This document shows positions 5,460 through 19,164 of a stretch of 21,725 bases of DNA, one piece after another; positions within the stretch are counted from its first letter, which is position 1, and each line of letters starts with the position of its first letter. The notes beneath the pieces were generated by a model. It saw only the letters and a program-made list of their open reading frames with translations, searched no databases and was not told the origin of the DNA. The position numbers were made by a program, and so were the translations under genes. Origin of the DNA: a virus; the IMG/VR virus record IMGVR_UViG_3300042503_000652, positions 1 to 21,725 of that record; one strand, given 5' to 3'.

Positions 5460-5706
5460 TCTTTTTGGTGAAAACTACTACATCGATTTGGATAAAGTTG
5501 AAAAAGAAGTGGAAATGACAAGTTCTTCGGGAGAGTCTCAAATCCATTTAGTTAAGTATGAAATGGTTAAAATGATGGTTGACACCATTTTAACGGAAAT
5601 TGAACCTGTTGATGAAAAGTTAGGTCCTAATAATAGTGAACTAACAATACCATTTAAAATTTCTTTTAATAGTTTAAGAGTAAAAAACATAATAAACAAA
5701 ATATAA
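5449..5706 (+). CDS. hypothetical protein, 85 aa
   Basis: I do not recognise this protein. It is small, begins MLFSLFGENYYIDLDKVEKEV, has a probable amphipathic helix around residues 38-55 (YEMVKMMVDTILTEI) and a beta-like C-terminus (ELTIPFKISFNSLRVKNIINKI). There are no cysteines, no signal peptide and no membrane segment. Its start overlaps the HAD-like gene by 11 bases and its stop precedes the next gene by six, so it belongs to the same transcription unit. The alternating strand-helix-strand look and tight packing support a real gene; the function is unknown. Confidence 0.7.
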   Translation: MLFSLFGENYYIDLDKVEKEVEMTSSSGESQIHLVKYEMVKMMVDTILTEIEPVDEKLGPNNSELTIPFKISFNSLRVKNIINKI

Positions 5707-6773: not shown

Positions 6774-7580
6774 ATGAACACAGAAAATAAAGTATCGGTT
6801 ATATTACCAATCAAATCAGGAAAAGCAATCAGTTTTGTTGATTTTTTTGACAAGGCTATTCAATCAGTTAAAAATCAAAAAGACTATGTTAATGAATTAA
6901 TCATTGTTCATGGTTCAGAAGATTATTTAACATCACATTTAACTTCATACGATTTTGGTGATTTAAATGTAGTTTTAGAAAGTTGGTCTGAAGAACCAAA
7001 TTTTGGAAAACAAGTTAATCACGGAGTGTCAATTGCAAATTCTAATTGGTGTTCAATTTTAGAATTTGACGATGAATATTCAAATATTTGGTTTAAAAAT
7101 GCCATTAACTATATGGATATTTACAAAAATGTTGACGCATTCCTTCCGATTGTTGTTGACATTGATAGTAAAATGGTATTTGCAGGATTTACAAATGAAG
7201 CGACATTTGCACAAAACATCTCAACTGAAATGGGTATTCTAACAAATGAAACTTTACAAACCTTCCAAAATTTTCAAACATCAGGTATGGTTTTCAGAAA
7301 AGAAAAATTTTTAGAAGTGGGTGGATTTAAATCTAATTTGAGACTTACTTTTGGTTATGAATTATTCTTACGTTTGACCCATAATTCAGCAAAAATTATG
7401 ACAATTCCAAGAATTGGATACAAACATATGAATTTAAGAGAAGGATCTATTTTTTGGAATTACAAAAATGGTGACAATAGAATCACGCAAGATGAAGCAA
7501 AATTTTGGATCGACACTGCGAAAAAAGAATATTTCTTCACAAATGAGAGGGATATAAATTACGAACCCCAAGAAATTTAA
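6774..7580 (+). CDS. glycosyltransferase family 2 (GT-A)
   Basis: A 268-residue GT2-type enzyme: KVSVILPIKSGK at 6-17 opens the nucleotide-sugar domain, a VNHGVSIANSNWCSILEFDD segment at 81-100 ends in the acidic metal site (FDD, 98-100), and SGMVFRKEKFLEVGGF at 170-185 is the acceptor-side block found before the ED/GYE region (GYELFLR at 194-200). No membrane anchor is present, so it acts in the cytoplasm. Together with the GT-B gene just upstream it forms a second glycosylation pair, separated from the first group by phoH and the HAD-like gene. Its TAA overlaps the ATG of the sigma factor gene by one base, so sugar modification and late transcription genes share a transcript end. Confidence 0.85.
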   Translation: MNTENKVSVILPIKSGKAISFVDFFDKAIQSVKNQKDYVNELIIVHGSEDYLTSHLTSYDFGDLNVVLESWSEEPNFGKQVNHGVSIANSNWCSILEFDDEYSNIWFKNAINYMDIYKNVDAFLPIVVDIDSKMVFAGFTNEATFAQNISTEMGILTNETLQTFQNFQTSGMVFRKEKFLEVGGFKSNLRLTFGYELFLRLTHNSAKIMTIPRIGYKHMNLREGSIFWNYKNGDNRITQDEAKFWIDTAKKEYFFTNERDINYEPQEI

Positions 7581-8323
7581 TGTTAGGGAGTGGTGAAGAA
7601 ATATCGGTAGAAAAGAAAAAGAAAGGACGTAAACCAACAACTAACAATTATTTTGATGTAAGAGAAGAAGAGGCCGTGAGAAACTTTCTTACGGCCGAAA
7701 CTTTTGAAGAACGTAACAAAATATATAATGAGTTTTTAAAAGATCCTTTAGATAAGATGATATCTTCTATTATTAGAAGATATAAATTATATAGAAAAGA
7801 TATGGATTATGAAGAAATACATATCGACACTCATTCGTTTTTAATGACGAAGATTGAAAAATTTAAACCTTCAAAAGAAAAGAAAGCATATTCATACTTA
7901 GGGACTATTTGTAAAAATTACCTTATGGGTCAGATTATGAAAGACCAAAAGGAAATGAACAGAAAGATCTCTTATGAAGATATTTCTTCAGATCTTACTA
8001 ATAGAACTGAAATGTCATACGTAATTGATAATGACGATTTGAGTTCTGAATATGTGATCAAAAAGTTTTTAGAAAAACTAAAACAAGATCTTGATGATAG
8101 TGAATGTAATGAGCAAGAACATAAATTAGGATCTGCAATATGTGATTTGTTTGAGAATTATGGAACTATATTTCCTGACACAAATAATAACAAATTTAAC
8201 AAAAATATTATTTTATTTGAACTTAGGGAGATGACTAATTTATCAACTAAAGAAATAAGAAATTCAATTAAAAAATATAAAAAGTTGTATTTTGAGTTAG
8301 TTCAAGAATTACTTAAAAACTAA
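7580..8323 (+). CDS. late-transcription sigma factor, T4 gp55-like
   Basis: Residues 55-130 look like a minimal sigma70 region 2: a helix DPLDKMISSIIRRYKLY, an acidic linker, then IEKFKPSKEKKAYSYLGTIC and KNYLMGQIMKDQKEMNRK. This parallels T4 gp55, which has a FDETKYKNPHAYI...KKERKEVAKKYSY arrangement. The C-terminal part (about 165-247) is helical and ends with a possible DNA-binding helical unit (TNLSTKEIRNSIKKYKKLYF). At 247 residues it is longer than T4 gp55 (185). It should direct the host RNA polymerase to late promoters, working with a sliding clamp and a co-activator. It sits at the border between early genes and virion genes. The sigma call is good; the gp55 equivalence is inferred. 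Confidence 0.75.
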   Translation: MLGSGEEISVEKKKKGRKPTTNNYFDVREEEAVRNFLTAETFEERNKIYNEFLKDPLDKMISSIIRRYKLYRKDMDYEEIHIDTHSFLMTKIEKFKPSKEKKAYSYLGTICKNYLMGQIMKDQKEMNRKISYEDISSDLTNRTEMSYVIDNDDLSSEYVIKKFLEKLKQDLDDSECNEQEHKLGSAICDLFENYGTIFPDTNNNKFNKNIILFELREMTNLSTKEIRNSIKKYKKLYFELVQELLKN

Positions 8324-14326: not shown

Positions 14327-14770
14327 ATGAAAAATTTAAACTCAATCATTAGAAAAGTTATTAGAGAAACTCACGAAGAAAAATCTTCAAGATATATGTT
14401 CTTTTCAAATTTAGAACAAATGAGAAGACAATGTGATTTATTGTTAGATATGGATCAATCAATGATTGAAGAAATATTAGAACATGGACATGATTGGGCT
14501 CAAGATCATATTGCCGAAGCAAAAAACAATATGGATCAAGTTTTTGATTTTATAATGAATGAAGTGGAGGGTGAAGATCATTCTGATGATATGATGATGG
14601 AAGGTAGAAAAAAAACAGGAACAAAACTTTGTGCTAGAGGTAAGACATCTGCTAAGTCAAAATATGACGTATACCCCTCAGCTTACGCTAATGGCCACGC
14701 CATTCAAGTATGTAAAGGTAAAATCAAAGGATTAGACGGAAAGAAAAAATGTTCCCCCCCTTATTGTTAA
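14327..14770 (+). CDS. probable internal head protein with Cys/Lys-rich C-terminus
   Basis: A 147-residue protein in three parts. Residues 1-14 form a short amphipathic segment (MKNLNSIIRKVIRE) ending in I-x-E, the recognition form of T4-like prohead proteases; it aligns residue for residue with the start of the 314-aa protein encoded at 16032-16976. Residues 20-80 are helical. Residues 83-96 form an acidic-Met patch (EDHSDDMMMEGRKK), and the C-terminus is basic with four cysteines and a KYDVYPSAYANGHAIQVCKG segment that I have seen in phage and giant-virus proteins but cannot tie to a function. A packaged, protease-trimmed protein inside the capsid is the best inference. A DNA-binding role for the basic tail is possible. 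Confidence 0.7.
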   Translation: MKNLNSIIRKVIRETHEEKSSRYMFFSNLEQMRRQCDLLLDMDQSMIEEILEHGHDWAQDHIAEAKNNMDQVFDFIMNEVEGEDHSDDMMMEGRKKTGTKLCARGKTSAKSKYDVYPSAYANGHAIQVCKGKIKGLDGKKKCSPPYC

Positions 14771-16031: not shown

Positions 16032-16976
16032 TTATTTTTTTCTTGGTTTATAACTTGTCATGACAGGTTTTTGACCTTTACCTGTTTGAGTATCTCTCTT
16101 TTCAGCTCTTCTTTTTTGTTGACAAGCGGATCTTTTTTGTGAATCACTCATTTTAGATGCCACACCAGCCGCTCGACATTTTGGGTAAGCCCCTTTACTC
16201 GTATCCGTTCTACCACAAGGGGGGTGTTTTCCGTCGACTTTACGACAAATGTTTACCCACGGTCCTTTTGGTTGAGAAGATCCTTTAGGTTTCTTCTTTG
16301 TCCCAAACCACACGGCTAAATCTTCATTAATTGTGTCAGGATAATCTATATCTCTTTTATATGATCCATTATTATCTTTTTCCCAAACACCAACCGTTCT
16401 TTTTATATTATTTTTAAGAGTGTTTTTTTTAATTGTTCTATTATAAAATGAATCAACAGAATCGGTAAAAGGGTCTAACTCATTTTTCCATTTATAAATA
16501 CCAATTTCTAAAGGTGCATTGTATGGACCTGCGGTAACTGTAGTGCTAGTCTCATTTAATAAATTATCATCGGACAACTCTATCCATTCATTAAAAGGAA
16601 CTTTTTCCGTAAATGGTGACAATTTTTCTTTCACATTTGGATTAAATCCGTCTTGCATGTATGGATTTACAGGATTACCATCATCATCTGAAAATGTTGA
16701 ATATGGGTGATGTTTGATGAAATCTTGTATTTTAGCTGCGGTTTTTTCTAATTTAATAATTTGACCTTTTCTAAGATCGAATTTTTCATCATAACTATCA
16801 TACTGAACTAAAGGACTTTTAAAGTCTGACACCGCATCTGTAAAAGGACCCAAAGATGTATTTTCCCAATATCTAAGTCCAGGTTGCATTGGTGGTGCGT
16901 AACTTCCTCTACCACCACTACTATCACCAGTTGCTTCTTTAATGACCTTTTTAATTATTTGATCTAACTTATTCAT
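16032..16976 (-). CDS. probable internal head protein with PFT repeats and Cys/basic C-terminal domain
   Basis: A 314-residue modular protein. Residues 1-14 (MNKLDQIIKKVIKE) match the start of the 147-aa protein and end in I-x-E before Ala, a likely prohead protease site. A flexible Gly/Pro stretch follows. Three copies of a L-x-PFT(D/E)-x-V motif stand at about 42-49, 119-126 and 167-174; the first and third also share W-x-N upstream and a phenylalanine downstream. The C-terminal third (from about 220) is basic and Cys-containing, with WFGTKKKPKG, WVNICRK, HPPCGR and YPKCRAAGVASK segments. This arrangement resembles DUF5872-type regions found in phages and giant viruses. It may be a packaged DNA-binding or capsid-lining protein. 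Confidence 0.72.
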   Translation of the reverse strand: MNKLDQIIKKVIKEATGDSSGGRGSYAPPMQPGLRYWENTSLGPFTDAVSDFKSPLVQYDSYDEKFDLRKGQIIKLEKTAAKIQDFIKHHPYSTFSDDDGNPVNPYMQDGFNPNVKEKLSPFTEKVPFNEWIELSDDNLLNETSTTVTAGPYNAPLEIGIYKWKNELDPFTDSVDSFYNRTIKKNTLKNNIKRTVGVWEKDNNGSYKRDIDYPDTINEDLAVWFGTKKKPKGSSQPKGPWVNICRKVDGKHPPCGRTDTSKGAYPKCRAAGVASKMSDSQKRSACQQKRRAEKRDTQTGKGQKPVMTSYKPRKK

Positions 16977-17006
16977 TTGATTATAATTATAAATATCTTA
17001 TATTTG
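16976..17006 (+). promoter_or_regulatory. Bacteroidota-type promoter TTTG-N19-TATATTTG
   Basis: TTTG at 16976-16979 and TATATTTG at 16999-17006 are separated by 19 bases, a full match to the Bacteroidota primary sigma consensus (TTTG, spacer about 19-21, TAnnTTTG). The expected transcription start is at or within a few bases of the ATG at 17011, so the message would be nearly leaderless. Confidence 0.65.
16988..16997 (-). promoter_or_regulatory. candidate late promoter/leader box GATATTTATA (minus strand)
   Basis: Read on the minus strand, the exact box GATATTTATA ends 11 bases before the ATG of the 314-aa gene. On the plus strand the same bases read TATAAATATC, containing the T4 late octamer TATAAATA, and they lie between the -33 and -7 elements of the host-type promoter for 17011. 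Confidence 0.5.
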
Positions 17007-17010
17007 AGTT

Positions 17011-17214
17011 ATGGAACAAGAAAAATACGGAAATCTTTTTGGGACGATAGATTTATTATCTGAAGAACATTTAGAACTTATATTGTCCACTATGGATAAT
17101 GAACATGCACTCTATTATTTAGTTGAATCTGTGAAATCTGCCCATAGAAAAGGATCTTTTACAATCGGTGAATCAGAAGTTATTTCAAAAGCAATTAGAA
17201 CTTTATTAAAATAA
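17011..17214 (+). CDS. small conserved-looking protein, 67 aa (unknown)
   Basis: A 67-residue acidic, helical protein: MEQEKYGNLFGTIDLLSEEHLELIL, then STMDNEHALYYLVESVKSAHRKGSFTIGESEVISKAIRTLLK (quoted in parts; the second part spans residues 26-67). There is no signal peptide and there are no cysteines. It is the only plus-strand gene within the minus-strand head region, with its own host-type promoter on one side and a hairpin terminator starting at its stop on the other, so it is a self-contained transcription unit, probably read early by host RNA polymerase. Small early phage proteins often bind host proteins, but nothing here shows a target. Confidence 0.75.
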   Translation: MEQEKYGNLFGTIDLLSEEHLELILSTMDNEHALYYLVESVKSAHRKGSFTIGESEVISKAIRTLLK

Positions 17215-17262: not shown

Positions 17263-19164
17263 TTATCTCAATTCTCTTAAGTCGAATGTTCTAACTCCAT
17301 CAACTGTGATACGTCCGTAGAAACGGTTGTTAACCATTTTCTTAGCGTATCTTGTCATAATACCTTTGATAGGTGTAAAGTTGAATGGGTTATACATTGT
17401 AGGTGTTAATTGTAGAGGAACATACGGTGCGTAAATGTAACCTGTGTCTAACAATGAAGTTCCTTTGTGTCCGATCAAAACTTGGTTTGGTGGGAAGTAA
17501 GGATCACGGTAAACTTGGTAACGACCTGATAATGTTCCAACTCTTTCAATACCCATGTTGTATTGATCTTGCTCAGGAGCCGCGTTAGATACGTGGAAGT
17601 ATTCTAAGTCATCAAAGATTGCAGAAACCTCAGAAGATACAACGATCCAGTTAGCACCACCTCTCAAAGTAGATTTGTGGATTTGTGCTGACAATTGGTT
17701 GATTGCTGTAATCAAAGTTTGGTTCCAGTCTTTTTGAGTATAAGATGTAGTAGCGTTAATTCTTCTCCATCCGTTGTAGTCCCAACGTAAGTTCCAAGCC
17801 GCACCTTTACGTAAGTCACGTAAAATTTCACGGTCGATCTCAGCTGCTACTTGCTCTGACAACAATGCTGTCAATTCAGCTTCAGCGTCGATGTTGTGGA
17901 ATGCCGCAACGTCTTGAGCTAATTCAGGAGACCATTGTGCTCTTAGTTTTCTTTCAGTTACAGAAACTGTTACAGATTCTAAGTCGAAAGAAACCTCACC
18001 AATTTGATCTTCAAACTCAAGGTTTGCATATCTTCTATACCATGCTGTGAATGAACCACCTGTAGATGCAGAGTAAATAGTTGTTCCTGTGTAACCATCT
18101 AATGATGTTGAGTTACAATCAGCACATACTGGACAAGATAAATCTACTTCTAAATAGATACAACCATTATTATCACAGATATCATTGTAACTACCACCAT
18201 TTCCTGTTGGAGGAGTTGAAGGGTTGTTGTAGTTGTTTCCGTTATTAGTGAATTGTGTTTGTGCGTTTGAACTTGTAGGTTGAACAATTCCTTTACCGTA
18301 GATTTGAGTTACAACTCTAAATAACAATGGTAAGTATTGACCTGAACCATTTTGAATTACATCACATGGTGTTGTAGATGCCGATAATCCAGCTCCACCG
18401 TAGATTTTAAGATCTGAAAGGAAAGATTCAGTATCCATTTCATTACCATCAGGACCGATAAGTTTACCACTACCTGCGTTAGCAAAACCACAAAGTTTGA
18501 TAATAACTTTTCTTGTGTTACCAGCTGGAATTTGAGCATCAACTAAAGTTCCTGCAGACCATAATTGTGTTGCGGCAGTTGCAGTAACTGCAGTCCATCT
18601 ACCTTTAGAGTAGTCAAATAATCCTGGAGGATCTAAACTTGCCTCATTTCCTTCATAGAATAAATCGTAAAGATCTTTTCTGTAAGGATAACCTGGTCCA
18701 CCTGGATAACCTTGGTTAGGGTTATCATTTCCTGAATTAATAGCTTCAGGAGAACCGATAGGTGCGTAATGATCACCACCTGTTGGGTTATTCGGGAAAT
18801 CTGCAATTGATCCAGCGTTTGAATAACCTTGGATTCTTGGCACAAAATAGAACAATTTACCGATTGGTAAGTTCATAGCTTGTACTGATACGATGTCGTT
18901 AGCCAACAATTTAGAGAAAACTCTTCTTACGATTGGAAAAACCACTGTTTCGAATGCTCCGTTAGAACTTCCATCAGCAGTTGCTTCGTTGATCAAGAAA
19001 GAAGCTTGGTTTTCATATAACTGTGCTACGTTTTCTTTTAAGTGACCTTTTAGACCATCCAAAAAGCCTAATTTGTCCCATTTGTTAATTGTGTCTTCTT
19101 TGATAACTTTAAGGTGTTTTAAACCGATGTTACCAACAAGACCTGATTCTAATAATGCTCCCAT
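17263..19164 (-). CDS. 23: major capsid protein, T4 gp23-like precursor
   Basis: A 633-residue gp23-family capsid precursor. The N-terminal prohead region ends in NQASFLINE before ATADGSS, so cleavage by the gp21 protease is expected after Glu60, as in T4 (after Glu65 there). Family landmarks follow: PIVRRVFSKLLANDIVSVQAMN at 77-98, ERKLRAQWSPELAQDVAAFH at 404-423, DAEAELTALLSEQVAAEIDRE at 426-446, GRYQVYRDPYF at 547-557 and YIYAPYVPLQLTP at 576-588. It is about 110 residues longer than T4 gp23 owing to an insert near 115-375, which includes a cysteine cluster (330-350). Its codons are richer in GC than its neighbours, with Arg often CGT, fitting very high expression. A terminator lies 22 bases past the stop. 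Confidence 0.97.
   Translation of the reverse strand: MGALLESGLVGNIGLKHLKVIKEDTINKWDKLGFLDGLKGHLKENVAQLYENQASFLINEATADGSSNGAFETVVFPIVRRVFSKLLANDIVSVQAMNLPIGKLFYFVPRIQGYSNAGSIADFPNNPTGGDHYAPIGSPEAINSGNDNPNQGYPGGPGYPYRKDLYDLFYEGNEASLDPPGLFDYSKGRWTAVTATAATQLWSAGTLVDAQIPAGNTRKVIIKLCGFANAGSGKLIGPDGNEMDTESFLSDLKIYGGAGLSASTTPCDVIQNGSGQYLPLLFRVVTQIYGKGIVQPTSSNAQTQFTNNGNNYNNPSTPPTGNGGSYNDICDNNGCIYLEVDLSCPVCADCNSTSLDGYTGTTIYSASTGGSFTAWYRRYANLEFEDQIGEVSFDLESVTVSVTERKLRAQWSPELAQDVAAFHNIDAEAELTALLSEQVAAEIDREILRDLRKGAAWNLRWDYNGWRRINATTSYTQKDWNQTLITAINQLSAQIHKSTLRGGANWIVVSSEVSAIFDDLEYFHVSNAAPEQDQYNMGIERVGTLSGRYQVYRDPYFPPNQVLIGHKGTSLLDTGYIYAPYVPLQLTPTMYNPFNFTPIKGIMTRYAKKMVNNRFYGRITVDGVRTFDLRELR

Follow-up and report, generated by a model that had tools for sequence, protein, structure and literature searches.

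Two overlapping promoters of different classes are probably present in the 34-nt gap between divergent genes of a T4-like phage

Can 34 nt between two divergent phage genes hold two promoters, and, if so, do these promoters form a switch? The gap lies in a 21,725-nt stretch of viral DNA (referred to here as “the window”), between a leftward gene encoding a 314-aa protein and a rightward gene encoding a 67-aa protein. An earlier note on this DNA proposed that a host-type promoter reads rightward, that a late-type box reading leftward sits inside its spacer, and that binding of a late sigma factor could shut off the early 67-aa gene, i.e., a simple early-late switch.

The window belongs to a T4-like phage and encodes a gp23-like major capsid protein (Pfam E-value 3.7e-74), a gp21-like protease, a scaffold-like protein and a candidate sigma factor. 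Judged by sequence, the phage is T4-like with promoters that look like those of Bacteroidota. Relatives were taken as the best 80 of at least 600 loci for gp23 and the best 80 of 191 loci for the 67-aa protein, both with a bias toward close relatives. The 67-aa gene occurs in 127 sequences (gp23 loci, 67-aa loci and the window), which reduce to 69 distinct ones by the last 60 nt upstream. Genome-wide statistics come from four long records (272,576, 296,330, 151,972 and 229,188 bases), in which genes were called with a simple script as ATG reading frames of at least 50 aa; gene-based counts are therefore approximate. Orientation was assessed in these four related records by comparing sense and antisense occurrences of a motif across 370 tandem gaps, each 25 nt or longer. 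Since the motif ATATTTATA is identical when reversed, a reversed-motif control is void, and the reverse complement was used as the control.

The arrangement described in the earlier note is present as claimed. The gap itself (16977-17010) runs from the start codon of the 314-aa gene (minus strand, A at 16976) to that of the 67-aa gene (plus strand, A at 17011). A rightward TTTG-N19-TATATTTG spans 16976-17006, with its 19-nt spacer at 16980-16998, and its TTTG shares one base with the 314-aa start codon. The leftward box GATATTTATA (minus strand, 16997-16988) lies wholly within this spacer (Table 1).

Table 1. Features of the gap, its flanking genes and the candidate sigma gene, in window coordinates
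Feature	Position	Strand	Basis
TTTG (-33 element, rightward host-type promoter)	16976..16979	+	Sequence; two-part motif 13 sense : 0 antisense
TATATTTG (-7 element, rightward host-type promoter)	16999..17006	+	Exactly 12 nt before the 67-aa ATG
GATATTTATA, late-type box of the 314-aa gene	16988..16997	-	Sense 66:1 in tandem gaps; kept in 66/69 relatives
AT-rich edge of the leftward late promoter (~-28 to -24)	17008..17012	-	GC profiles before tandem late boxes
67-aa gene, conserved in the phage group	17011..17214	+	Alignment of 53
314-aa gene, predicted to be driven by the late-type box	16032..16976	-	Box in 61/64 distinct upstreams
Candidate phage late sigma factor (gp55-like)	7580..8323	+	Weak phrog_234 match and region-2 fold

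The 67-aa protein is predicted with confidence (pLDDT 90.7) to form two short strands and three helices. The model has no match in the PDB at E<=0.001 and no known fold in BFVD, where the best match (3.1e-3) is an uncharacterised phage protein; the protein has no match in the phage collection. The N-termini of the 314-aa protein and of a 147-aa protein (14327-14770) are alike, with 9 of 20 residues identical; this shared stretch may serve in capsid targeting, like the N-terminal sequences of T4 head proteins.

In the window alone, TTTG-N17..21-TANNTTTG is at chance level, with three occurrences against 1.84 expected, a count reached in 30 of 100 shuffles, and GATATTTATA with up to two mismatches is not enriched, with 67 occurrences against 81.9 expected. 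Exact GATATTTATA occurs three times, each just upstream of a gene start and in the correct orientation. The significance of both motifs comes from the statistics of the relatives.

For the late-type box, these statistics are strongly directional. In the 370 tandem gaps, the 9-mer ATATTTATA is found 66 times in sense and once in antisense, and the 8-mer ATATTTAT 119 and three times; exact GATATTTATA is found 26 times in sense and once in antisense before 419 tandem genes at the gp23 loci. Because of this sense bias, the box in the gap is read leftward, toward the 314-aa gene. With up to one mismatch, the box precedes the gp22-like scaffold gene in 28 of 28 distinct upstream sequences and a 489-aa gene in 15 of 15; for the 314-aa gene, the proportion with a box within 50 nt is that given in Table 1. 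For gp23, the box is found within 50 nt in just 10 of 82 distinct upstream sequences and is absent from 72. The gp23 gene (17263-19164 in the window, and in relatives) may share a transcript with the gp22-like gene. The isolated Flavobacterium phage immuto (TATTTATA, seven sense and two antisense) and Microcystis phage Mel-JY01 (ATATTTAT, eight and one) show this bias as well; sense boxes in Mel-JY01 lie mostly 41-45 nt before the ATG. No such box was found in the 41.5 kb examined of LR756508, a gp23 relative. In other divergent gaps, palindromic late boxes overlap and face both ways (G003, 5649-5674; G002, 70083-70121).

The sequence around sense boxes gives the late-type class further definition. 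Among 213 late boxes (ATATTTAT) before an ATG, there are peaks at 12-13 nt (63) and 20-25 nt (69), and the clustering at 12-13 nt (G001, G002, G003 and G005; loci L164-L212) suggests a large leaderless class. By the spacing of that class, the leftward transcript in the gap would start at ~16983-16984, with a leader of 7-8 nt. GC content falls to 0.06-0.17 at -16..-12 before 138 tandem late boxes and has its minimum at -27/-28 before 186 late boxes, with the T of the box counted as -12. A profile of 70 boxes shows no element further upstream than the AT-rich tract, and the GC signal at -33 is present in the host-type set but far less so in the late set (0.47 vs 0.34). The start site has an A-rich signature, with A at +13 of 60 of the 70 sense boxes. 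In the gap, the AT-rich edge reaches two bases into the start codon of the 67-aa gene.

The late promoter of T4 is TATAAATA at -13..-6 and depends on gp55, gp33 and gp45, as outlined in PMC1524935, PMC2988020 and PMC7892883. The boxes described here resemble it in being short and AT-rich, about one turn before the start, in lacking a conserved -35 element, and in preceding head genes; a candidate gp55-like sigma factor also appears to be encoded nearby. However, their sense strand, TATTTATA, is the reverse complement of the T4 late box, and there is an AT-rich element near -28, whereas the upstream DNA of T4 late promoters is reported not to be conserved. The late box of the gap, read rightward, matches TATAAATA as given in PMC1524935. 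A T4 late promoter pointing right was rejected, with TATAAATA found 19 times in sense and 96 times in antisense in tandem gaps.

The candidate sigma factor matches phrog_234 (late sigma) with an E-value of 0.0035, and of 3.9e-5 in a genome search; phrog_234 matches are found in the window and in three of the four long records (not G003). The match to Pfam Sigma70_r2 is below the cut-off. In a low-confidence model (pLDDT 66), the fold is that of sigma region 2, with Z 8.8 and an rmsd of 2.6 to a sigma factor over 91 residues, and the leading structure matches are sigma factors. There is no sequence match to T4 gp55, which is also absent among the 50 structure matches listed. By sequence, the sigma assignment is weak. 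We use “late” as a provisional label, based on the orientation of the motif, its position before structural genes such as that for the gp22-like scaffold, and the weakly matched sigma gene. In our survey, which covered open-access literature, we recognised no paper that deals with the late promoters of T4-like phages from Bacteroidota or with a late box of sequence TATTTATA.

The rightward promoter has the same -33/-7 elements as the Bacteroidota housekeeping promoter, TTTG/TAnnTTTG, described for Flavobacterium johnsoniae (PMC6847099), and the two-part motif TTTG-N15..23-TANNTTTG is found 13 times in sense and never in antisense in the 370 tandem gaps. In 18 of 1049 genes, TA..TTTG is found at an offset of exactly 12 nt from the ATG, compared with 0-4 at the other listed offsets and one for the reverse complement at offset 12. 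Twelve of these 18 genes have TTG 17-22 nt upstream; the two-part motif occurs 11 times at offset 12 and at most three times at any other. Since the F. johnsoniae -7 element sits at -12..-5 (PMC6847099), an offset of 12 corresponds to a transcript that starts on the AUG, i.e., a leaderless one. The TATATTTG of the 67-aa gene fits this class exactly, with TTTG followed by TAHHTTTG at the known spacing, in a genome group where the motif is biased to the sense orientation. In F. johnsoniae, by contrast, 87% of predicted transcripts are reported to have leaders >10 nt; promoters of that species are described as AT-rich near -18 and -28 (PMC6847099), and the phage late promoters studied here are AT-rich there too. 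It is rare for one gene to have both elements: a late box precedes 2 of 36 host-type genes, compared with 291 of 1013 others. Genes bear either a host-type or a late-type element, and the classes avoid each other. The earlier claim of two distinct promoter classes, late to the left and host-type to the right, is thus supported by the 66:1 and 13:0 ratios in tandem gaps.

Conservation separates the two elements. The earlier note looked to relatives to keep both, and this expectation holds for the late box but not for the host-type element. With up to one mismatch, 66 of 69 distinct relatives have the late box ahead of the 67-aa gene. Among the 69 relatives, all of which keep the 67-aa gene, TAHHTTTG is intact in four distinct gaps (three at -12, one at -11), is replaced at -12 by TAHHTTT[T/C] (TTTT or TTTC for TTTG) in 10, and is missing from 55. 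It is damaged or missing in L085, L087 and L092 despite 96-100% identity of their 67-aa proteins, by which they are nearer to the window than is L008. The note had named loss in close relatives that keep the genes as evidence against its proposal, and for the host-type element this is what is seen. In L008, all 34 bases of the gap are identical to the window, although identity over the initial 153 nt of the 314-aa gene is 74.5%; the whole gap therefore seems to be conserved in this pair. A nucleotide identity of 0.31 for the 67-aa gene of L008 was an ungapped artefact of a length difference and was discarded. The tree of the 67-aa protein has poor resolution, with 31 of its 60 inner branches open; on it, the fewest changes are 7 for the state of the host-type element, 15 for the spacing on the 67-aa side and 29 for that on the 314-aa side.

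The rightward match could be a chance product of an AT-rich gap, with the 67-aa gene transcribed from elsewhere in all relatives. We consider this quite improbable. The two-part motif is at chance level in the window, the host-type element is not conserved, and the -33 TTTG belongs in part to the leader context of the 314-aa gene, all of which would favour chance; against this, membership of the 12-nt class is exact (18 vs at most 4 per other offset; 11 vs at most 3 for the two-part motif), and the element is unchanged between the window and L008. Moreover, of the 69 distinct relatives, L075 alone has a further host-type -7 element (offset 41) within the 95 nt that precede the 67-aa gene.

The same data bear on the proposed switch. 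In its working form, host holoenzyme would make the 67-aa mRNA early, and late holoenzyme would then take the overlapping leftward promoter and silence the gene. The cores overlap, the promoter classes are disjoint, and the gap is identical to that of L008 despite diverged flanks, all of which would suit such a toggle; the geometry of the cores also supports the earlier view that joint occupancy is unlikely. However, the host-type element is damaged or lost even where 67-aa proteins are 96-100% identical. Promoter overlap alone need not cause competition in E. coli, where basal transcription from five bidirectional promoters was reported to be too low for polymerase competition, which arose upon activation (PMC12825309). 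With the host-type element intact in just four of 69 gaps, a conserved early-late occlusion switch is unsupported, and switching cannot be taken as the function of the site. A working toggle is, in our view, unlikely. The same holds for its lineage-specific version, a 34-bp sigma-swap toggle in the lineage of the window and L008, in which a leaderless early gene served by the host holoenzyme would be displaced once the phage late holoenzyme, with a box that is the T4 one read backwards, took the promoter nested in the host-type spacer, with no repressor protein needed.

The loss of the host-type element from most relatives leaves room for the box to act in both directions. The near-palindromic ATAAATAT and ATATTTAT differ in the centre alone, and late holoenzyme might fire both ways from a single promoter, making both genes late. 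ATAAATAT reads right 22 nt before the 67-aa ATG, a distance within the 20-25 nt common for sense late boxes, and bidirectional promoters that arise from -10 symmetry are described as common in E. coli (PMC12825309). Of 66 relatives, 47 have a spacing of 23 nt between the box and the 67-aa ATG, some of them without the host-type element, and six have 24 nt; the others are 11, 13, 17 (four), 25, 26, 28 (two), 31 and 49 (two). On the other side, the distance to the 314-aa ATG ranges from 14 to 40 nt, once 65 (66 relatives). However, the antisense box is nearly absent from tandem gaps (66:1), and the box centre therefore sets direction. Spacing is loose where a sense box drives the gene (22-49 nt for the gp22-like gene, 8-42 nt for a 143-aa gene), unlike the fixed 23 nt, and the A-rich start signature is weaker rightward, with A at the matching position, -9, in 29 of 47 compared with 60 of 70. 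In a search for a conserved rightward promoter upstream of the 67-aa gene, exact ATATTTAT was found in none of the 69 distinct relatives; with one mismatch, it was found in 28, in most cases at a site that overlaps the left box. We regard a single bidirectional promoter as rather improbable.

The fixed spacing can be read from the leftward promoter instead. No relative has a spacing of 18-22 nt. One gap at 18 nt (L096) was not classed as 67-type, and we read it as a 67-type gap whose start was called at an upstream in-frame ATG. The mean late-promoter profile at hypothetical spacings of 18, 19, 20 and 21 nt is -0.59, -1.64, -3.20 and -1.99, rising to 0.75 at 22 and 1.78 at 23, and is good from 23 to 26; it is also good at 16 (1.05), a spacing used by no relative. 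Given the empty 18-22 range and the low profile at 18-21, we therefore read the 67-aa start as packed on the far edge of the promoter. What relatives conserve, by this reading, is a late promoter that reads left, with its AT-rich -28 edge closely abutted by the 67-aa start codon. Packing tolerates spacings >23 nt, and 47 of 66 relatives at exactly 23 is tighter than it requires.

Together, these sequence comparisons make it fairly probable that two core promoters, each of its own class, overlap in the gap: a conserved late promoter reading left and a lineage-specific host-type promoter reading right, with the 67-aa start packed on the late edge. The leftward one would be a phage late-type promoter for the 314-aa gene, with sense box TATTTAT, an AT-rich contact near -28 and a short leader; it is presumably old, and in nearly all relatives the start codon of the 67-aa gene is packed against its upstream edge. 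Reading right would be a newer promoter of Bacteroidota host type, from which, in this lineage only, the 67-aa mRNA would start on its own AUG. Judging from the geometry, it is likely that in this lineage one polymerase excludes the other. The 67-aa gene may thus be expressed early here and then yield to the 314-aa gene, but this is not the conserved function of the site.

Several known systems share parts of this arrangement. In phi29, the A2b/A2c early and A3 late promoters hand over from early to late during infection, as in the proposed toggle, but the switch is described as relying on the regulator p4 with p6 rather than on a sigma swap on overlapping cores (PMC10899789). Plasmid pLS20 uses overlapping divergent promoters as a genetic switch, but in the control of conjugation and with DNA looping, not a phage sigma swap (PMC4207663). 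Bidirectional promoters of E. coli have a near-symmetric -10 box between divergent genes, like the gap, whereas the box here is strongly directional in tandem gaps (PMC12825309).

For a large group of uncultured T4-like phages, this analysis provides sequence-level definitions of two promoter classes, with many leaderless phage mRNAs predicted. In this group, the late box is that of T4 facing the other way. The gap would be a compact test piece for asking whether a sigma swap alone can turn a gene off.
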